NCBI GenBank assembly: GCA_025558095.1
Contig: JAIVFI010000040.1
Span: 372,001-436,000, forward strand
DNA length: 64,000 nt
Reading direction: 5' to 3'
DNA from: Hyaloraphidium curvatum
Taxonomy: Eukaryota; Monoblepharomycota; Hyaloraphidiomycetes; Hyaloraphidiales; Hyaloraphidiaceae
Part shown: positions 18,852 through 54,360 of the stretch, one piece after another
How the letters are laid out: each line of letters begins with the position of its first letter
Position numbering within the stretch: the first letter of the stretch is position 1
Made by a program: the position numbers and the translations under genes
The notes under the pieces: model-generated
What the model was told of the DNA's origin: nothing
The model's database searches: none
Seen by the model: the letters and a program-made list of their open reading frames with translations, nothing else

Positions 18852-21551
18852 TCAGAGGACCAAGGCGTCCAGCACCTTGCCCGCGATCTTGCGGTCTGTT
18901 TTGTGCCAAGTCAGAAACCCGCGATCGGCGCACTCGAACGGCAAGCGCACTCACAGTTCCAGTTCCCGCCTGCCACCCTCCTCGTGTGCAGCACATGTCC
19001 ACCTCCGGACCCGCGCGGTGCCGGTGCGATCCCCACCGTGAAGCATAGCGCCTCCCTTCCCTTGAGCGCCGCCGCGATCCGCTTCGCCGGGCTGGGCGGC
19101 CTCACGCTGCCCACCGACGACGAGGGCGAAGCGGGCAGCGTTCCTTCGCTACCCTCGACCGAGGACGCCGACGACGGGCGGCGCAGGTTCTCGAGCACCA
19201 CCTGCACGTCGGGGATGTCGCACTCGAAGCCGTCCTCGGTGCGGCGGTGCGGGATGCCGTGCAGCTGCAGCACGCGGCGGAGCTCGGCGGCGATCTTCTC
19301 GGGTGGGAGGCGCGACTGGTAGACCGAGGTCGAGAACCACGAGGAGAGGGGGCGTCGGGTGGGGCTGGCGGGCGGGCTGGCGGCGGCGACGGGGGCGGAA
19401 GTGGGGGCCGCCTTTGTGGGCGAGCCGGGGGCGGTGGGGAGGTTGGTGGTGATTGCAGGGGGCTTGAGCGAGGGGGATGAAGAAGTGCGCTGTTGCTTGC
19501 TGGGTGGGGCCAGCATGGCCGCAGGCGGAGGAGCTGGAGCGGCAAGAGCTGCCCGTGCCGGCTCCGCAATAGGCGCAGCCTTTACCGGTGACGCCGGTGC
19601 GGCAGAAGCCAAAGTCTGGGTCGACGCTGTGGTGGCCCCGGGCCCGGAGGTCGAGTCCTTGGAAGGCGACGCAGCCGCCTGCGATCCCTCAGCAGCGATC
19701 GGCGTGCCGGCCGCCGAAACCGCCGCAGATCCCGGCGCCGCCGATCCCGCGACGGCCCAAGCACCACCGTACGGATCCGTCCTCGACGCTTTGACCGGGC
19801 TGGTCGGGATCCTGCTCGCCGCCCCGGTCCCGCCCACGGTCGCATACTTGGCCGGCTGGTACGCCGGCGCGGTCCTCGCCGCACGGTCCACCTGCATCAT
19901 GGCCGCCTGCGTCGAGTACCTCCCCTGCGGGGTCTTTGGCCTCTCCGGCACGGCAGGCGGGGGCCGGGGCTGCACCGAGAAGCTCTCCGAGTGGCCCGCG
20001 GCGTGAACACGTGCGTTCTTGGCCGGTAGCGGCGGCAGCTTCCCCTGCGCGGCCTCGGCGGGGGCCGCCGCCTGCTCCCTGGCGCGCATCCGCTGCTCCT
20101 CCCTGGCCACCATCTCCTTGAGCAGGTAGTAGGTGCACCGCAGCGGCGCCCCGTGCGGGTCCTCCGCGTCCGCCTCGCCCGGGCTCCCCCACGGCTCCCT
20201 CAGCCTCCACCTGTCCCCATCCGCAGCCTCCCCCCCCGCCGCGGCCGCCTTCCCTCCTTTCTCGAAGGCCGCCCGCACCTCGCCCTCCCCATAGTTCAGG
20301 CACGCCATCCTGCGCACCAGCCCCTCCTCCAGCGCGGCGATCGGCGGGCGGGGCGGGGAGTAGTCCGGCACGGGGTGCGAGTAGCCGTGGTTGACCCAGG
20401 GGTGCGAGAGGACCTCGGGGAGGGTGGCGCGGCGGGAGGGGTCGACGGTGATGAGGCGCGAAATGAGGTGGCGAGCGTCTGCGGGGACGCGGGTCAGCCG
20501 AACGTCGCCGGGCAAGGGCGACTCGGATCCAACCGGGCATGAGGTAGTCGGGCACGGTGTACGACCCCTGGGCGATCTTGCGGTACAGCTCCTTCATGTT
20601 GTCGTCGTCGAACGGCAGGTGCCCGCACAGCAGCGCGAACAGGATCACCCCCAGGCTCCACATGTCGACCTCGGGCCCCTCGTACTTGCGGCCCAGGATC
20701 ATCTCGGGCGCGGCGTAGAACGGGCTCCCGCAGAAGGTGTCGAGCAGGTGGCCCGACCCGGGGCCCTTGAACGAGTTGCCGAAGCCAAAGTCGATGATCT
20801 TGATGGTCTTGACGGGCTCGCCGCCGCCGGGGGAGGGGGAGATCTGGAGCAGCAGGTTCTCGGGCTTGAGGTCGCGGTGGATGATGTGATTCTGTGCCGG
20901 GCGGCGGGGTGAGAATGGTTCCGTCGCGGGCACCCCGAGCTGCAGGCCCACCCTGTGACAGTACTCGACGGCGCTCAGCACCTGTCGGAAGAAGTTTCTC
21001 GCCTCGTTCTCCTTGACCCTCTTGTTCGCCACGATGTAGTCGAACAGTTCCCCCCCGCCGACGTACTCCATGGCGATGTAGATGTGGTCCGGCGTTTCGT
21101 GCACGTCGTGCACGCCGACAATGTGCGGGTGGTGCAGGAGCTTCAGCAGCGAGACCTCGCGCTCCAGGCGCATGCGCTGCCGGGGGGAGGAGATGTGCGA
21201 CTTGTCGATGATCTTGACGGCGACCTGCGCGGCGGGGAGGGGTGAGCGGAACGCGGACTGCACCGTCGCCGGCAGGCCCACCTTGTTGTCCGGCCCCTCG
21301 GCCTTGAGATCCGTCGCCAGCTTCACCTTCCCGTAGGTTCCCTGCCCGATCGTCTTTTCCAGGCGGAACCGGGCACCCGTGCCCACGCAGGTCCCGTCGG
21401 GCGGGATGGGCACCTTCTTCCGCGCCGTGGGCCTGGGCGGGGCCGGCGGCGGGTTCCTCGGCCCTGCATTCGCCGCAGTCGCCCCTCCACCGGCCGCATG
21501 AGATTCAGGCGAGGTCGGAGAGGGGTACGGCGAGGCAGCAGCCGACGCCAT
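18852..21551 (-). CDS. KIN1/MARK-like Ser/Thr protein kinase with C-terminal KA1 domain
   Basis: CAMK-group kinase of the KIN1/MARK/SNF1-related type, probably acting at the cell cortex in polarity. Exons 21551-21282, 21224-20952, 20891-20534, 20478-18955 and 18895-18852 give 822 residues. Kinase motifs: IGQGTYGKVKLA, VAVKIIDK, HRDLKPENLL, KIIDFGFGNSF and CGSPFYAAPEM. A long Ala/Pro/Ser linker follows. The C-terminus is a KA1 domain (LPPEKIAAELRRVLQLHGIP) whose last strand and helix come from the tiny 44-nt final exon: GGNWN|YRKIAGKVLDALVL. That exon is easily missed. KA1 domains bind acidic phospholipids in the family. Start chosen at the ATG of MASAAASPYP; an in-frame upstream ATG at 21656 has a basic, unconserved leader. 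Confidence 0.93.
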
Positions 21552-22148
21552 GGTCCTGCGATGGCGCGGGGTGTCAGCCGCGTGTTTGCGCGGTCCCGCG
21601 GCGCATGCACGGCACCCCTGCGCCCGATCGGCGGCCTGCACGATCCCGACGGCCACCTCCGATGTTTATGGGGCCGGCCGCGGGGCGGTGTGCGCGGCGA
21701 CGGGGGGTGCGGTGCGTGCGCCCGGAATTGCGGGACGCGGCGAACCTCGAGTGCGGGCGGCGGGCGGGGCCGGCGGGGCCGGGCGCGGGCGAATCCCGGC
21801 CTGCGAGAGCGGGAAGTGGCGTGCGAGAGGGGGATGGCAGGCCGGAGACGTCCCTCGAGATGTTTGGCGTTGTTTGGCTTTGCCCGCTAGCTTTGGCGAT
21901 TCGGCGCGGCGGGGCGGTGCAGCCGGATAGCCGACAAACAGGACACACCGGCGGAACACCTTCGGCCGCTGAGGCCGCAAATAAGCTGCGGCGCTTGAAG
22001 CGGGACAGTCTTGCTTGTCACTCGGCGGCGGCTGTGCGCAGCGGCGGACAGCAGAGGCCGGAGGACTCACCCCGGCTGACTCGCCGGCGGACGCCATCGC
22101 GGACAGTCTACCGCTGCCGTGGCAATTTCCCCTGCGGACTTTGACAAA
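21552..22148. other. Divergent promoter region kinase / F-box-ankyrin gene
   Basis: About 600 nt, GC-rich, between two outward starts. Frames here are compositional. No clear element is identified. Confidence 0.4.
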
Positions 22149-46280: not shown

Positions 46281-47162
46281 ATGTCGGCTCGCCGCACCGA
46301 CCCCCTCGAAAGCACCACCTCGTCGTCCGGCATCACCGGCGTCCCCACCAGCGGTGCCGGCGTCACCTCTTCTTCCATGCCCGGTGCGAGCCTCTGCTCT
46401 CCCGCGCTCAGCCTGTCGCTTACCTTTCGGAGCAGCGGCGGGCACCGACAGCCCCATCCGCATGATGGAGAGCACCTCCGGCCACCCGACCACCGAGCAC
46501 GGCATGCCCGGGGTGTCTTCGGGCGCCACGGGCGGGTACGGCAGCATTGCTGGCACCGGGTACTCCAGTACCGCCGGCACGACCGACTACGGCACTACCG
46601 GGGCCGGCACGGGCCTCGCCGGGGACACCAGCCGCGGCTTCTCCGAGAGCGGCGTGGGCTCCGTCCCCGGATCGACCGGATACGGCTCGCACGGGATCAC
46701 CGCCGCCGGGGTCACCGGCACGGGCACGGACGCGTACGGCCAGCCGACACCCGTGGCGCACGAGGCGGCCAAGCCTTCCAAGGTCGGCGGGGCGATGGAC
46801 AAGATGATGGGGTCGGTCAAGGTGGGGCGTGGCCTGCCCCATGGGCGGAAAACGGCTACTGATGCCTGTTTGTCTGCAACAGGAAGGGCTCGGGAGTATG
46901 ACCGGCTCGCACGGCATGCAGGCCGCCGGGCACGAGCAGAAGCTCGAGGGGCAGGCCAGGATCGACGCCGCCAAGGTACAGTCCCCTCCTTCCGTCCCCT
47001 CCAGCGAGCTGCGCTGACCCCAGATTTCCATAGGCGGAGAAGGAGATCAAGGGCACCCAGAAGGTCGCCGAGGGCGACATGAAGCAGCACTACGGCACCA
47101 TGGGCCAGGGGGTCACGGGCACCGCCGAGGAGGCCGTGGGGCACACGCGGAGGATGCACTGA
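46281..47162 (+). CDS. CsbD/Hmp1-like stress protein, long paralogue
   Basis: Exons 46281-46383, 46436-46821, 46883-46975 and 47034-47162 give 236 residues. The N-terminal about 125 residues are Gly/Thr/Ser/Tyr low complexity. The C-terminal module (KVGGAMDKMMGSVK|EGLGSMTGSHGMQAAGHEQK, EKEIKGTQKVAEGDMKQHYG, GQGVTGTAEEAVGHTRRMH) is the amphipathic CsbD-like/‘cruciform DNA recognition protein’ (Hmp1) family of small fungal stress proteins. These are usually induced by stress or stationary phase; molecular function is unclear. The last two exons (93 and 129 nt) are exactly the same lengths as in the next gene. Confidence 0.85.
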
Positions 47163-47475
47163 TCAGGCAGAGGGGAGATCTTGAAGCTGCTTCGTTTCCT
47201 TTTCTTCGCGCGATGGCGCTGTACATGTCTTGATGCGTCCTGCTGAATAGCTTACGTCGCTTCCACCCCCGTTCTGCCTCCCCCTCGTCCAGCCTGTCCT
47301 CATCACACCTCATCGCCAGTTCCTCCAACACTTCCTTACGAGCCTCTTCCTTTGGTTCCCGACTCGCTGGGACTCCGCTCAGAGGGAAGGCAATTCGGGA
47401 GTGCGGTGCAACGGGCCTGTCACATGCTGCGGCTTCGGGCTTCGGTCCTCCGGGCTTCGCTTCCTGTCCGGATTG

Positions 47476-47501
47476 GTGGTTCGGGCTTGTGGTTCGGGCT
47501 T
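47476..47501. repeat. Tandem 13-nt repeat in promoter
   Basis: GTGGTTCGGGCTT occurs twice in perfect tandem (47476-47488, 47489-47501), with further TTCGGGCTT-like copies just upstream. It lies about 120 nt before the TATA box and could be a regulator-binding cluster. Confidence 0.6.
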
Positions 47502-47619
47502 CGCTCCTCGTCCGCATTGGCGGAAACTGGGGGGCGGCGGTGGCTGTGGGGAGGCTTTCGGGTGCGGTGTCCCAGCGCGAGGGAGACGCAACGCCACGGG
47601 GCTTTCCGCCGCAAGTCGA

Positions 47620-47626
47620 TATATAA
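47620..47626 (+). promoter_or_regulatory. TATA box of the short CsbD-like gene
   Basis: TATATAA, 86 nt before the ATG at 47712, in otherwise GC-rich DNA. TATA promoters are typical of strongly inducible stress genes in fungi. Confidence 0.6.
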
Positions 47627-47711
47627 GCTCGCTCTCCGACCTTCCGGCAGTATCACCACCGCTGCGCAATCAACCATTCGCACGTCTACGCAGCCGCCAT
47701 ACCGCATCGCC

Positions 47712-48132
47712 ATGTCGTCGCACACCACCACCTCCGGCAAGCCTTCCACGGTCGGTGGGACTGTGGACAAGATGGTCGGGTCCGTGAAGGTGGGACATTC
47801 CTTGCTGCGCGGGGTGGGAGCGGGGTTCTGACGGCCGCTTTCCGTTCGACGTAGGAGACCGTCGGGAACGCGACCGGCTCGCAGTCCCTGCAGGCCGAGG
47901 GCCAGCTGAAGAAGCTCGAGGGGGAGGCCAGGATCCAAGCCGCCAAGGTGCCGCGCCTCCTTCTCCCCCGACTCGGGCCGCGCTGACAAACGTTCCCGCG
48001 CAGGTCCAGAACGAGATCGAGGGCACCAAGAAGGTCGTCGAGGGCGACCTGAAGCAGCGATTCGGCACCGCGGGGCAGGGCATCTCGGGCGCCGCCGAGG
48101 AGGCCGCGGGGCACATCCAGAGGGGGCACTGA
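47712..48132 (+). CDS. CsbD/Hmp1-like stress protein, short paralogue
   Basis: Exons 47712-47789, 47855-47947 and 48004-48132 give 99 residues, entirely the CsbD-like module: STVGGTVDKMVGSVK|ETVGNATGSQSLQAEGQLKK, EIEGTKKVVEGDLKQRFG, GQGISGAAEEAAGHIQRGH. It lacks the Gly/Thr-rich N-terminal half of the upstream paralogue. This is the normal size of the family. Tandem arrangement and conserved introns show local duplication. The protein is highly charged and probably unfolded alone; a DNA-binding role has been proposed for fungal relatives but is not visible in the sequence. Confidence 0.88.
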
Positions 48133-48345: not shown

Positions 48346-49425
48346 TCAGAGGGCCACGAAGACCGCGCCGACGGCCGCCACGGCGCCGATCACGCCCGCC
48401 GAAACCCTGCCGGCCGAGGCGGGGCGCGAGGTCGTCGTGGGGGCCGCGGTCGTCGGGGCGGCGCTGCTGGTGGCAGGAGCAGATGTGGTGACAGTAACAA
48501 AGGACGTGCGGGTGGTGGGGGCCACCGTGGCGGTCGCGGTGGCGCTGGTAGCCGGGACGTCGACCTTGGCGCACTCTGGGGCAAGGAGGAAGGAGCACGA
48601 GGTCAGAAAAGGCGAACGGGACCGCGCGTAGGCGGGCACCCACTTCCTTCAGCGCTGAAGGTGCCGATGGGGATGACGCTGCAGTTGCCGTTCAGGACGA
48701 TCTGGATGCCGGGGATGGGCGACGCGCAGGCGGTGTCGGTGAAGGCGTCAATCACGCCGGTGCCATTGGCGTTGCAGGTTGCCTTGCCCGAGCCGGGGAT
48801 GCCGATGGCGCTCAGCGAAGTGCAGGAGCCGGCCCTGACCGCGGTGACGCCGAGGGTCTGGCTCAGGTCCGTGGTGTTGCAGTTGGTGTTGAGGAAGATG
48901 CGGCCCTCGGCAAAGTCGCCGACCGTGCCGGGCGGGTAAACGGGGGCAAAGGTTGTCGAGCACGTGGTGATGTTGGAGGCGGCGCCGTCGACGTTGCACT
49001 TTCCGGTCTGCGCGATGACGATGGGGTCCGTGCACGACGGCACGCCCTGCACGGGCACGACGGTGATGACCTGAGCCTGGCCTGCAAGTAAACTGGTCAG
49101 AACGTGCTTGAAAACACGATGACCCCGTTACGAGCAGCCTTTCTGGCGCAGGCCGCCCGCCGACGAATGGGGGACGGGACGCGGGGACGCGCCACCGCTC
49201 ATAACGCGCGCGGGCAGGGCCACAACGCGACGCCCCGTTGCGGGCTCAATCTCCGTCCTTTTCTCGGCAGCCTGCCTCCCAAGACGCGTCGCTTTCGTGC
49301 TCACCGCTGCAGTTGGCGTTCGGGAATGTGGCGAACGAGAAGTAGAGGAGGTTCTGCGCGGCAGCCGGGCGCGCGCACGCGGCGACGACGAGGGCGGCAA
49401 GGAGAACGAGCGCGGCACGGGACAT
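48346..49425 (-). CDS. GPI-anchored protein with ectodomain shared with the TKL kinase gene
   Basis: Exons 49425-49305, 49081-48644 and 48575-48346 give 262 residues. Signal peptide MSRAALVLLAALVVAACARP, then QNLLYFSFATFPNANCSG across a 223-nt intron to the ectodomain: SCTDPIVIAQTGKCN, CSTTFAPVYPPGTVGDFAEG, NTNCNTTDLSQTLGVTAVRA, GSCTSLSAIGIPGSGKATCN and CASPIPGIQIVLNGNCSVIP, with even cysteines and N-glycosylation sites (NIT, NTT, NGT). A Thr/Ala stalk and an uncharged hydrophobic tail ending in VGAVFVAL indicate a GPI anchor. The ectodomain is nearly the same as in the receptor-like kinase 3.5 kb away; intron positions around it are the same too. The family is not one I can name. Confidence 0.88.
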
Positions 49426-49732
49426 GGCGCGGGAGGGTTCCAAAGGCGCGTGAAAACGGGGGGACGAAAAACTGATGGGGACGGTGGAGACGTTGCCGCC
49501 GTGCCCAACACGCCGTGTGGCCAGACCACACGAACATTCGACGGGGCGCAGCAGGCTCTTTAAAGCTCAAGGCGAGAGACAAGAAGAAAAGATTCGTTGA
49601 CTGCAATCCACAAGTCTTTGCGGGTTGGATGGCCCTCACGCCCGCCGACTCCTTGCCCAGGGACAAGGCGGATCAAGACGACACACACGACCGCCAACAC
49701 GACGCCGTTCAACTTGCAGCCACGGCATCCGA
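49426..49732. other. Intergenic, no gene seen
   Basis: About 300 nt between the GPI-protein start and the oxygenase stop. No supported element. Confidence 0.4.
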
Positions 49733-50875
49733 TCAATCCGCCTCGGGCACCCCGAACCTCTCCACCAGCTCCGGCCAGAACCGCCTCGCCACGCTCGGGT
49801 ACTGCCTCGTCCTGTTGAGCATCCACCTCTCCGCGTCCCCCGCGAGGTCCTGCCCCGTCCAGCCCGGCTCGGCGTCCGTCCGCGCGTTCAGAGCGAGGGG
49901 GTTGCGCTCGGCGGGCAGGACGGATTCCGGAAGTGGTTCGACGCGGGTTTCGAAGGATGGAGAAAGGAAGTAAGGGAGGCTGATGCGTCCGCCGCGGACG
50001 AGGAGGGTGTTGACGCGGTGGGTGGTAGCCGGGCAGCGCCCTCGACTAAAATGGTCAAATGGAATTGCTAGGTTGACGGCGACGGTGCCGGGAATGTGAG
50101 GCACGTCCGTCCAGTCCCCGCTCCAGTTCTGCACCTGAAGCCCCGGTCCATCCGAGACGACCAGGGTGATCCAAGAGGCCGCGTCGCGGTGCGGGCCTAG
50201 TCCCTGGACAAAGTCCTCGTCCCCCTGCTCGTCCGCCCCGAGTGCCGGATAATGCGACAGCTTGGCGAAGAGGAACGGCTCGTTCCGCACAAAGTGTTCG
50301 TCCATGTAGACCTCCGGCAGCCCCAGCGTCCGCATCATGAGCGCGTTGACGGCGTGGAACGTCGCCCTGCAAGCGTCCCAGTACCGCTCCATCGCGGGCC
50401 TGAAATCGGGCAGCGCCTTCTCGTCCGGCCACACGTTGGGCCCCTGCAGCACCCTCTTCCACAGCGGCGCCTCGGGGTCCGTGCACGGCGGCCGGTCGAA
50501 GCCGGCGTCGAAGTTCTCGCGCCGGTTGGGCCGCCACATGGTGCGCTCCTCGCCGAGGGGCATCCACCCGCGGAAGTGCGGCGAGAGGCGGCAATCCACT
50601 TTAGCTTTTTCCTCCTCGGGGAGGGAGAAGAAGAAGCGGGCCTGTTGAATGGCCTCGGCGGCGATTTCCTCTGTGACGGGCGAGCCGGCGACGAGGAAGA
50701 ACCCGACGTCGAAGAGGGCTCGGTGCATGGTGCGGAGGAGCTCGGGTTCGCGCGGCGTGCCAAGGAGGGAGAGGTCGGCGATTGGGATAGCCGGTTCCCC
50801 GGGGGCAGGGGCGGAGGGGTGCTTGGAAGGGGCAGTGTCTCCCGCGGCTGCGGGGGCGGCGTCGCCGTCGGGCAT
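49733..50875 (-). CDS. 2-oxoglutarate/Fe(II)-dependent oxygenase
   Basis: Single-exon 380-residue enzyme. DIOX_N begins IPIADLSLLG and contains ALFDVGFFLVAGSPV and RFFFSLPEEEKAKVD. The catalytic half has GLGPHRDAASWITLVVSDGPG with HxD, QVQNWSGDWTDVPHIPGTVAVN, and ATTHRVNTLL with the distal His and 2OG-binding region. It is not closely similar to the six-exon oxygenase near 3 kb. The frame extends upstream without ATG, so the start is the ATG at 50875 (MPDGDAAP). Substrate unknown. The ferredoxin gene lies just upstream on the same strand, but 2OG oxygenases do not need ferredoxin, so no link is implied. Confidence 0.9.
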   Translation of the reverse strand: MPDGDAAPAAAGDTAPSKHPSAPAPGEPAIPIADLSLLGTPREPELLRTMHRALFDVGFFLVAGSPVTEEIAAEAIQQARFFFSLPEEEKAKVDCRLSPHFRGWMPLGEERTMWRPNRRENFDAGFDRPPCTDPEAPLWKRVLQGPNVWPDEKALPDFRPAMERYWDACRATFHAVNALMMRTLGLPEVYMDEHFVRNEPFLFAKLSHYPALGADEQGDEDFVQGLGPHRDAASWITLVVSDGPGLQVQNWSGDWTDVPHIPGTVAVNLAIPFDHFSRGRCPATTHRVNTLLVRGGRISLPYFLSPSFETRVEPLPESVLPAERNPLALNARTDAEPGWTGQDLAGDAERWMLNRTRQYPSVARRFWPELVERFGVPEAD

Positions 50876-51310
50876 CGTGCGCCTTCGTTCCTCGGAGTAC
50901 ACGACGTCGACTCGGTGCTCGGGAGGAGAGGAGGAAGAAAACGGTGTGCCGATGCTGCCCACCCTGGGCTCAGGGGATTTGGAGGCGAAGATGGCGCAAT
51001 GGACGCGGGCCGTGCGTGGTTACGGTTGTTTGCGGCGCCTCACCACCGCCAGCGAAAACGAACTTCGGCAACTTCGTCAGCATGCCGCGCCCGCGCCCTA
51101 GGCCCGGGGCCAACCAGTTCATTCCGCCGCCTTCGGGGGACGACGAAAACGACGATTGATGATGCGCAGGGATCTGATGCGCACGGAGGGAAAAGACGAT
51201 TCCTGAAAAGCAAGGAGGCGCGCGACCGAGGGAAAAAGAATGTGTCGCATGTAATGGTGCAGAATAGTCCGCGAATCTCGAGCCCAGCCCAATCTCAATG
51301 CCATGGTGGA
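50876..51310. other. Intergenic, no gene seen
   Basis: About 430 nt between the oxygenase start and the ferredoxin stop. Short frames only. Confidence 0.4.
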
Positions 51311-51950
51311 TCACTCCGCGTCTGCAGCCAGCTCCGATGCCACGTTCGTCCTCAGCTTGATGTCGTTCCGCGGGTAGGCGACGCAGGCCAGCACGTATCC
51401 CTCCCTGATCTGATCCTCGTCCAGGAATCCCTGCCCGCCCTGCTTCACGTCCCCGGGCTTGCTGCCCCCGACCAGCTTGCACGCTGCTCCGCGCGTCAGC
51501 ACCGAATGCCGGCCCCGTGGCGCGCGGGGCCCACCGCACTGGAGGCATCCCCCGTTCCGGCACCCGTCGTCGAACGGCAGGTCGATCCCGGCCTCCTGCG
51601 CGGCGTCGAGGATCGAGTGGTGCTCCGAGATGGGGATGGTTTGGGCGATGTCCTTTGGCGGGGAGGGGATCAGGAGCGGCGGGGGCGAAGATGCGTCCGG
51701 GGCACCTCGTCCTGGATCAGGGTCACTGAAAGACACATCGGGCGTTCAGCAATCACGATGGGCGCGGACGGAGGGGCGTCCCACCGCGGTACACCTTCGG
51801 CACCCTCCTCGCCGGCTCCGCGTCCTTCACCGCAGTCTCCGGGCCGACAAGGCCGTACGCCGCCGGCCCCGAGCCCGTGGCTTCGGTGGGCACGGAATCG
51901 GCGGGCAGCGCGGGGCGCTCGCGGAGCGTGCGGACGTCGACTTCCTCCAT
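51311..51950 (-). CDS. Plant-type [2Fe-2S] ferredoxin
   Basis: Four exons (51950-51785, 51725-51706, 51652-51535, 51483-51311) give 158 residues; one exon is only 20 nt. After splicing the C-terminal about 100 residues read as a photosynthetic-type ferredoxin: YRVTLIQDE, SILDAAQEAGIDLPFDDGCR, then FLDEDQIREGYVLACVAYP. Iron ligands are Cys93, Cys98, Cys101 (CX4CX2C) and Cys135. The gap to the last cysteine is four residues longer than usual, with an extra Cys103. The N-terminal 55 residues are acidic and do not look like a plastid or mitochondrial targeting peptide. Most fungal [2Fe-2S] ferredoxins are adrenodoxin-type mitochondrial proteins, so this one is unusual. Electron partner unknown. 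Confidence 0.9.
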
Positions 51951-52054
51951 TGGGGGACCGAGCGGGGATTCGGGAGGGGTGCGGAGAAAGCGGGGCTGAC
52001 GTCCCGCGCAAACTTCAACTGTCCCTTCTAGTTCCGCTGCGAGGTTCTCCTCCG

Positions 52055-54360
52055 TCACCCTTCCTTCATGGCGCTGAGTTCGTTGAAAACGGCGATGAAA
52101 GCTGGTCGCATGGAGGGGTCGTGATCCCAGCAACGCTCCATCAAGGACCACAGCCGGTCGTCGGTTCCTGGCGGCTTCTCGGGCCTTTTCCTGAGGACCG
52201 CAACTTGGTACATGAGCTGGTGTGGAGAGACTTAGGGCGGGGCCCAACAGCTCCGGGATGCCGTGCCACTCACCGCTGGAATGTTGGTCGCGTTCTCAAA
52301 CGGATACCTTCCCTTGCTGACGACCTCGTACATCAGCATGCCGAACGCATAGACGTCGGCGGGAGCCCGCAATGGCTGTCCCTCTAGGATCTCGGGCGCG
52401 ACGAAGCCGGGGGTCCCCGAAATCCCGCCGGGAGCCGTGGTCGCCTTGGAAGCGTGGTGCCGCATCCGCGATAGTCCGAAGTCCGCAATGACGGCCCTTT
52501 CGCCGTCCACGAGGACGTTTGCCGCCTTGATGTCGCCGTGCAGGATGTTCCGGGTGTGCAGGTAGACCATGCCCGCCGCGGCGTCGCGGAGATACCGAAT
52601 CCCCGTTTGCGGATCCCAGTTCTTCGCGGCAATAGCTTTCCGCAGGTTCCCGTCCGGCATGAATTCCGAGATGAGCATTGGAGGCGACTGGCAGAACGCC
52701 ATTAGGGGCAATACTGTTCGAGTGCGTGTCAAAAGCGCAAGCAGACAACGCTGGTCATTACGCACCGTTCCGATGGATGAGACCGTGCCACGTGCGTGCT
52801 TCCTTCAAAAACACGGCCCAGCCTTCCGCATCCAAACCGCCCCGGAGCGTCTTGACGGCGACTCTAGTCGTGCCAAACAGGATCCCTTCGTAGACCGTGC
52901 CGAAACCCCTTTCTCCGACAGGCTTCGTCGAGTCCACAACGATCTGGCCGGGCTCGATGAGAAGCTTGTGAAGCGGATCGGATGTTGCGACGAGGTCCGA
53001 GGGCTCTCCCGGGGAGCTAGACGGAGAGATGGCCGCCGCAGCAAGAATGCCCGAACCAGCTCCCAGTGGGGATTCTGGAGCGTCTGTGACATCAACCGGA
53101 AGGACAGCTGGGGATGCTCCGGCGGGAGTGCTGGAAGATTCCGACCCTGGCTCCTTCTTGGGAGGCAAGGCGACGGCGGTGTTCTGCGTCTCCTTCGAAA
53201 CAACGGTGTTCTGCGAGAGAAGAAGTTGGCTGCGTTCCGCCATCGTCTGCGAAGGTGCTCACCATGGCAAGTGTAGGCACATCCGATGATGCGGAGTCCG
53301 GAACACTTGCAACAATGGCCATAGCTGGTCTAGCAGTAGCGGTTGATGTGATATCTTTGGCCGTTCCCTTATCCTGTCCTTGAAACCTAGCAGGCGCCGC
53401 AGGTGGTGGGGCGCCTCCTTTCTCAGTCTCCTTAGAAACGGTGGCGGCAGCAGGAGCCTCGGATTTCCGGCGCCGCGACCAGAGAATGAAACCGAGGATG
53501 GCTCCAACCGCCGCGAGGCCTCCGATGACACCGCCAAGTATCGCTCCGATCGGCGCTCCACCTCCGCCCGTATCGGGGGGCGGCACCACTGTAGGAGTCG
53601 CGGTTGTTGAGGTTGTGGTTGTTGTCGCGACCGTCGTCCTCGAGGTTGAAGTCGCCAAGGCTGACGTCGTGACGGGGTCGCTAACTCTCGCGCAGTCTGT
53701 ATTGATCCGGTAAGCGGCTCGTCACTGCCCGCAAGCCACTGTGAAAACGCCTACTTCCGATGGCGCTGAAGCTGCCGACGGGAATGACGCTGCAGTTGCC
53801 GTTCAGGACGATCTGGATGCCGGGGATGGGCGACGCGCAGGCGGCGTCAGTGAAGGCGTCGATCACACCGGTGCCGTTGGCGTTGCAGATGGCCTTGCCC
53901 GAGCCGGGGATGCCGATGGCGCTCAGCGAAGTGCAGGAGCCGGCCCTGACGGCGGTCACGCCGAGGGTCTGGCTCAGGTCCGTGGTGTTGCAGTTGGTGT
54001 TGAGGAAGATGCGGCCCTCGGCAAAGTCGCCGACCGTGCCGGGCGGGTAAACGGGGGCAAAGGTCGTCGAGCACGTGGTGATGTTGGAGAATGGGCCGTC
54101 GATATTGCACTTTCCGGTCTGGGCGACGACGATAGGGTCCGTGCAAGAGGGAACGTATGGGCACCACGGTGATGACCTGCGCCTGACCTTAGGGCGACCA
54201 GGCCTTAACCAAAGGCCAGGCCATAGAACAACGAAGGTTTGCCCCACCAGCGCAATTGGGGTCCGCGAAGGTCGCGAACGAGAAGTAGAGCAGCGTCCCC
54301 TGAGCCGCCGCGGGTCGCGTCAAACAGGCGAAGGCCAAAAGAACGATAGCACGCTGCCAT
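52055..54360 (-). CDS. Single-pass transmembrane TKL-type protein kinase (receptor-like), signal peptide out of frame
   Basis: Six exons (54360-54248, 54176-53755, 53696-53263, 53210-52766, 52713-52274, 52216-52055) form an uninterrupted 671-residue model. Ectodomain SCTDPIVVAQTGKCN to NGNCSVIP matches the GPI protein. TM helix 227-251 (PIGAILGGVIGGLAAVGAIL) is followed by RRRK. Kinase: GERGFGTVYEG 422-432, VAVK Lys443, HGDIKAAN 530-537 (HGD instead of HRD, as in many fungal TKL kinases), ADFG 548-551, GTPGFVAPEI and a last exon LMERCWDHDPSMRPAF. In exon 1 the DNA of the ancestral signal peptide (RAIVLLAFACLTRPAAAQ) is in another frame than the ATG at 54360, and the homologous acceptor at 54188 would break the frame; using the AG at 54177 keeps it. 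Membrane topology is therefore uncertain. Confidence 0.78.

Follow-up and report, generated by a model that had tools for sequence, protein, structure and literature searches.

Here we describe two genes on the minus strand of a 64,000-nucleotide stretch of DNA (the window) from Hyaloraphidium curvatum, a chytrid-like fungus placed in the zoosporic lineage Monoblepharomycota. One gene (48346-49425) encodes a putative surface protein whose C-terminal membrane anchor is most likely glycosylphosphatidylinositol (GPI), the other (52055 to about 54360) encodes a predicted receptor-like kinase, and the two proteins carry almost the same cysteine-rich ectodomain. With moderate confidence we read them as paired surface receptors in a fungus, their ectodomains kept alike by ectopic gene conversion. 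This reading is built from sequence features, namely the shared exon, the mosaic of identity around it, its recurrence on a second contig, at least two changes of carrier, and a kinase and transmembrane segment that form one unit. The exons of the two genes, in coding order, are as follows.

49305 to 49425, minus strand: GPI-type gene, exon 1, encoding the signal peptide and the protein's N-terminus (MSRAALVLLAALVVAACARPAAAQ...); splice model identical to deposited protein P0124
48644 to 49081, minus strand: GPI-type gene, exon 2, encoding the cysteine-rich ectodomain; the SCTDP stretch found in both genes spans 49037-48645 and its core 48965-48669
48346 to 48575, minus strand: GPI-type gene, exon 3, serine/threonine (S/T)-rich stalk and hydrophobic C-terminal tail, stop at 48346
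54248 to 54360, minus strand: kinase gene, exon-1-like stretch; the frame resembling a signal peptide (from about 54347) is not that of the ATG at 54360
53755 to 54187, minus strand: kinase gene, exon 2, encoding the cysteine-rich ectodomain; the stretch common to both genes spans 54148-53756 and its core 54076-53780; relative to the GPI copy it lacks five bases ahead of SCTDP, and alternative acceptors lie at 54182 and 54176
53263 to 53696, minus strand: kinase gene, exon 3, S/T stalk, predicted transmembrane segment (53559-53464) and start of the cytoplasmic part
52766 to 53210, minus strand: kinase gene, exon 4, juxtamembrane part and N-lobe of the kinase, with VGERGFG at 52919 and with VAVK at about 52862
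52274 to 52713, minus strand: kinase gene, exon 5, catalytic loop HGDIKAAN (52540-52517) and DFG (52483-52475)
52055 to 52216, minus strand: kinase gene, exon 6, end of the kinase domain (CWDHDPSMRPAF) and stop

Splice logic gives the GPI-type gene three exons encoding 262 amino acids, a model identical to the deposited protein P0124 (DFJ74DRAFT_439157). The hydropathy of this protein peaks at 2.13 from residue 4 and at 2.37 over residues 244-262, residue 262 being the last, which corresponds to a signal peptide and a hydrophobic C-terminal tail with no cytoplasmic residues behind it. The kinase gene encodes 624 amino acids from SCTDPIV to the stop at 52055, in the rest of exon 2 (ending at 53755) and four further exons, and its four introns after exon 2 are all GT-AG (58, 52, 52 and 57 bases). 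A Pfam search of this chain returned PF07714 (E 6e-50), and with VAVK, HGDIKAAN and DFG all found it is predicted to hold a tyrosine kinase-like (TKL) domain with its catalytic residues. Between ectodomain and kinase lies a single transmembrane segment (GAPIGAILGGVIGGLAAVGAILGFILWSRRRK, 53559-53464), which is predicted only, having been called by eye and by its likeness to loci identified from hydropathy and search. A signal-peptide-like stretch in the 5' region of the gene (VLLAFACLTRPAAAQ; also VLLAFACLTRPAAAQGTLLYFSFATF) resembles the signal peptide of the GPI-type gene. The sequence-only reading that first drew attention to this locus, in which a GPI-tailed protein and a transmembrane TKL kinase share the segment from SCTDPIV to NGNCSVIP, is thus borne out, with both genes on the minus strand.

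Aligned from SCTDP to the end of the exon, the two copies differ at 9 of 131 residues, which agrees with an earlier count by eye of about nine in about 130, and at 27 of 393 bases; within the span from SCTDPIV to NGNCSVIP the difference is 6 of 123 residues. In a genome-wide DNA search the exon matched these two places only, a likeness far beyond chance. The introns that flank it sit at the same position, as had been claimed, and in phase 1 in both genes, an agreement that on the 5' side applies to the homologous splice sites but not to a working frame; the intron sequences themselves do not align. Divergence is distributed very unevenly along the gene pair. The shared exon as a whole has a synonymous divergence (dS) of 0.17 and a nonsynonymous divergence (dN) of 0.04, and its core of 99 codons has a dS of 0.13 and a dN of 0.009, with 2 amino-acid differences, against a dS of 1.16 and a dN of 0.13 in the exon-1 blocks (26 codons; Fisher p 2e-5 for core versus exon-1 blocks on synonymous counts). 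Both kinds of divergence are low in the core and rise in exon 1 and at either end of the stretch compared, over its first 24 codons and over its last eight, where dN reaches 0.30.

A second matched pair is found on contig C30. Two copies 98% identical to the ectodomain core of one kinase gene there, C30b, lie at C30:49861 and C30:67882, and the former belongs to a GPI-type gene (C30:49160-50498) with a signal-peptide-like start, exons matching those of C30b, an S/T stalk of some length and, directly before the stop, a hydrophobic end (AMAGLVPALAAAAALAAMC), without a kinase. Its core exon differs from that of C30b at 1 of 64 residues. Taken in 60-base windows, the pair shows 97-100% DNA identity in the core and 62-92% in most of the flanks, and the core exon and exon 4 have dS values of 0.06 and 0.05, compared with 0.18, 0.38 and 0.70 in exon 1, exon 2 and the start of exon 5 (core versus rest, Fisher p 0.004). 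Both the window pair and the C30 pair are thus more alike in the ectodomain exon than in the flanking exons and introns, as expected of gene conversion, and the homogenised tracts of both include the C-terminal cysteine-rich half. The sequence-only reading had left a choice between recent duplication and conversion; homogenisation with a low-divergence core has stood up, and one simple recent duplication has not.

The opposite pattern is seen between C30b and its neighbouring kinase gene C30a, whose kinase exons are almost the same (dS 0.027, dN 0.003) and whose ectodomain cores are well diverged (dS 0.82, dN 0.16). Because C30b shares its kinase exon with C30a and its ectodomain core with the C30 GPI-type gene, the ectodomain and kinase modules appear to have been exchanged separately. 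Such a contrast in divergence within gene pairs is independent of any clock. The third C30 copy (67612-68088; core 67882-68088) has no kinase listed nearby, and its next exon was matched only in the first part. A further contig, C48 (30.6 kb), repeats a portion of the receptor cluster on C30 (C30:49000-69000) and holds two C30a-type ectodomain copies in opposite orientation, as a haplotype, a duplication or an assembly artefact; it was treated as redundant with C30 in counts.

When the genome was searched with the ectodomain frame of the GPI-type gene at the protein level, nine places matched, the two window copies included. C38, C12 and C13 carry GPI-type genes, composed of a signal-peptide exon, an ectodomain and a hydrophobic tail and judged by eye to be without a kinase. 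Related ectodomains stand ahead of a transmembrane segment and kinase on C25 and in two genes on C30, as does a weakly related one on C24 (34% identity, E 0.003 to C30). The possibility, raised with the original observation, that relatives never link the kinase to this domain can therefore be set aside, as the linkage is present on C25, twice on C30 and, in weakly related form, on C24. Two loci on C6 bear a different cysteine-rich ectodomain, with 44% identity between them.

A tree of 10 ectodomains divides into two clades (split 100/99), the first comprising the GPI-type genes of C38, C12, C13 and the window together with the window kinase, and the second the kinases of C25, C30a, C30b and C24 together with the GPI-type gene of C30. 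Most inner forks of this tree are weak, three branches are long, and 8 of its 10 rows are exon joins made by eye. As each clade contains both carriers, at least two changes of carrier have to be assumed, and carrier switching is well supported.

None of the ten ectodomains has a Pfam match at E 0.2 or better; the only hint, CxC3 at E 0.25-0.32, is below the Pfam cut-off and was not adopted, and the best match of a PDB profile search (eIF2 gamma, E 0.067) was taken as chance. Protein searches, which need common 5-residue words and similar length and could let distant or much longer relatives escape, found no convincing relative of the ectodomain outside H. curvatum. Among 7999 candidates scored, residues 1-240 of the kinase chain matched three Aspergillus proteins with 33-37% identity over 14-18% of the query, which is likely to reflect low complexity, and a second search (140 candidates) returned P0124 only.

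The kinase side of the pair belongs to a large family. Receptor-like kinases had been described as rare in fungi at the outset, a description that does not fit this genome, in which at least 21 loci join a stalk/transmembrane cassette to a kinase (24 minus three on C48). Stalk/transmembrane matches at E 1e-3 or better number 44 among 68 listed, and at least 24 of the 44 are followed within 3.2 kb on the same strand by a kinase match, compared with 1 of 44 upstream, kinase positions being taken from 177 kinase matches and all counts being among the matches listed. Because the kinase follows the transmembrane segment downstream and seldom lies upstream, the two can be regarded as one unit. A conserved transmembrane motif is present in 14 of 23 kinase loci (the 20 next-nearest and three earlier loci), a count that excludes three hydropathy matches set aside by eye as unlike the motif. 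Other ectodomains borne on the same cassette include RCC1-like and Stig1-like ones, judging by the Pfam entries of P0009 and P0008. Related kinases from other sequence sources (P0006, P0010, P0014 and P0020) also have a hydrophobic segment ahead of the kinase, with an N-terminal hydrophobic stretch and RCC1-type domains as well in P0020, and the receptor-kinase architecture may exist outside the H. curvatum genome.

In the arrangement that we favour, the kinase partner would be a type I receptor-like kinase with a cysteine-rich ectodomain, an S/T stalk, one transmembrane helix and a cytoplasmic TKL kinase, and the neighbouring protein, which lacks a kinase, would display this ectodomain through a membrane anchor at its C-terminus, most likely GPI. 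Ectopic gene conversion, with its centre in the ectodomain, would keep the partners alike. Capture of the 5' half of a GPI-type gene at the phase-1 intron, followed later by re-homogenisation, is the probable history of the window kinase. Both partners presumably bind the same ligand, the kinase form would signal on binding, and the anchored form may tune that signalling. It might do so by acting as a co-receptor or, as we slightly prefer given that the anchored forms lack any cytoplasmic part, by serving as a decoy or a reservoir of ligand. A broader version of the proposal we put forward tentatively, as possible but rather less than probable: that this is a fungal paired-receptor system in which an expanded receptor-like kinase family and its non-signalling GPI-anchored twins take their cysteine-rich ectodomains from one pool, with passage both ways, that the partners are selectively matched, and that the anchored form acts as a decoy or presents the same ligand to the kinase.

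Several observations weigh against paired receptors kept alike by conversion. Shuffling the carrier labels on the ectodomain tree gave a value as low in 204 of 500 cases, so the labels cluster no more than by chance, and for that reason we attach little weight to a direction of transfer, the simplest reading being that the window kinase carries a GPI-clade ectodomain and the C30 GPI-type gene a kinase-clade one. The pairing is not general, as three sibling kinases that were tested have no near-identical twin; the best non-self ectodomain identity is 45% for C25, 34% for C24 and 44% for the C6 locus searched. GPI anchoring is called from the hydrophobic tail only. Synonymous divergence is a poor clock here, since a tandem pair of CsbD genes in the window combines a proportion of synonymous differences (pS) of 0.11 with a dN of 0.22, so that synonymous sites look constrained in this GC-rich genome; the argument therefore rests on the contrast between modules within the same gene pairs. 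Further points concern the 5' end of the window kinase, which as assembled has no signal peptide in frame with its ectodomain. The signal-peptide-like stretch and the ATG at 54360 lie in different frames, the copy is five bases short early in exon 2 relative to the GPI-type gene, and a frame from that ATG into the ectodomain is open with a shifted acceptor (54182 or 54176) but then lacks the signal peptide. The deposited kinase P0004 (368 amino acids) omits the ectodomain and transmembrane segment altogether.

Two in-frame upstream ATGs of the window kinase would place 56 or 86 residues ahead of the hydrophobic stretch. We also considered rescue of the signal peptide by splicing, listing paths from the signal-peptide frame to the ectodomain frame by one intron of at least 35 bases with a GT or GC donor and an AG acceptor; none of the 21 was convincing, 18 having a GC donor and three a weak GT donor (GTTCGC). 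These 5' frame lesions may be assembly errors or recent.

A first alternative is that the homogenisation is neutral, with close paralogues simply converting each other and the GPI form a wall or adhesin-like protein that has no functional tie to the kinase. The ectodomain exons do lie close together in both pairs (about 5 kb apart in the window, about 8 kb on C30), and the kinase exons of C30a and C30b have been homogenised too, so exchange is not confined to ectodomains. Proximity would nevertheless predict conversion between the ectodomains of C30a and C30b, which are nearer to each other (about 5.5 kb) than C30b is to the C30 GPI-type gene and have not been homogenised (dS 0.82). Both tracts also take in the C-terminal cysteine-rich half, and the core of the kinase copy looks constrained: its 2 amino-acid differences compare with about 14 expected for drift over half the divergence (P 1e-4) and 7 for drift over a quarter of it (P 0.03). 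We consider the neutral account rather unlikely.

The lesions described above raise a second alternative, that the window kinase is decaying or truncated, so that just its cytoplasmic kinase part (P0004) would be produced and the ectodomain upstream of it would be a relic. The out-of-frame ATG and the five missing bases are what such a gene would show, and the deposited model starts after the transmembrane segment. A relic is harder to reconcile with the 131 codons compared in the kinase copy, which hold no stop or frameshift and include a core with 2 amino-acid differences, or with the nine codons before the five-base lesion, in which there are 2 synonymous and 0 amino-acid differences. Moreover, both C30b and C24 have an ATG in frame with their signal-peptide-like stretch. 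Decay of the window kinase, which would be compatible with a functional pair on C30, seems to us doubtful. A third account, one simple and recent tandem event that duplicated the ectodomain exon with no conversion involved, for all that the exon is highly identical and found at two genomic places only, is very improbable given that exon 1 is homologous too but far more diverged, that intron 1 differs in length (223 versus 60 bases), that identity drops towards the exon ends and that modules diverge in opposite directions within one gene pair on C30.

On a practical level, users should be aware that a deposited gene model can lose an ectodomain, as has happened with the window kinase, where P0004 starts (MAIVASVPDS) past the transmembrane segment, though within the same exon and reading frame. 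The annotation may have truncated further receptor-like kinases as well. Of the deposited H. curvatum kinases, P0004 and P0007 (368 and 346 amino acids) have no transmembrane segment ahead of the kinase.

The interval between the two ectodomain genes contains, on the minus strand, a 2OG-Fe(II) oxygenase (DIOX_N, 2OG-FeII_Oxy; 49733-51019) and a 2Fe-2S ferredoxin-type domain (Fer2; 51311-51745). The CsbD-like genes used as a control above are two neighbours on the plus strand (46300-48130), the second identified as PF05532 at 2e-14 and the first alike by eye; in their last exons amino-acid change exceeds synonymous change (dN 0.22, dS 0.12). Another protein kinase frame (Pkinase, 8e-56) lies at 19689-21665 on the minus strand of the window.

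Fungal sensing is usually described in terms of G-protein-coupled receptors, histidine kinases and nutrient receptors. According to the available text of a 2010 survey, leucine-rich repeat (LRR) receptor kinases are lacking in the fungi studied (PMC2939053), and a study of fungal kinases near the tyrosine kinases, as far as its main text goes, took 6 of 241 from Chytridiomycota (PMC3937382). The window kinase shares the CW(X)6RPXF motif of the fungal TKL/FslK kinases in that study, in whose main text the word "transmembrane" is absent and no ectodomain pairing is described (PMC3937382). In overall design there is a parallel with the TKL receptor-like kinases of Phytophthora infestans, which likewise combine a signal peptide, a transmembrane helix and a TKL kinase in expanded lineage-specific families; that organism, however, is a stramenopile, its extracellular parts are short, long or LRR, and the accessible portion of the report describes no matched GPI twin (PMC3019232). 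Our literature search, which mostly did not extend to subscription journals, found no description of a fungal receptor-kinase/GPI pair and no paper on Hyaloraphidium with kinase, receptor and transmembrane. What H. curvatum adds is a zoosporic-lineage fungus in which receptor-like kinases of one type occupy at least 21 loci, some of them matched by near-identical anchored twins. The two loci that hold matched pairs provide testable material, and C30a and C30b form a natural domain swap, with almost the same kinase exon behind different ectodomains.

The vertebrate TNF-receptor family offers one functional comparison in TRAIL-R3/DcR1, a GPI-anchored decoy whose ectodomain is a paralogue of that of a signalling receptor, although no kinase is involved. 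The best precedent, by analogy, is provided by the mammalian CEACAM paired receptors (CEACAM1, receptors with an immunoreceptor tyrosine-based activation motif (ITAM) such as CEACAM3, and GPI-anchored members). To judge from the part of the source available, similarity in most CEACAM receptor pairs peaks within the N-domain exon and hardly continues into the introns on either side, a likeness that is put down to gene conversion or recombination, and decoy roles are discussed (PMC2832619). The CEACAM domain is Ig-like and unrelated to the Hyaloraphidium ectodomain, and its partners are ITAM receptors or receptors with the corresponding inhibitory motif (ITIM), not kinases, with ligands and cell types that are partly known (PMC2832619, same text). 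In both cases, however, a ligand-binding exon, putative in Hyaloraphidium, is nearly identical between paralogues that differ in their cytoplasmic or membrane parts (PMC2832619, as above), and if our interpretation is correct H. curvatum would provide a new place, outside animals and with an unrelated domain, in which to study how paired receptors originate.

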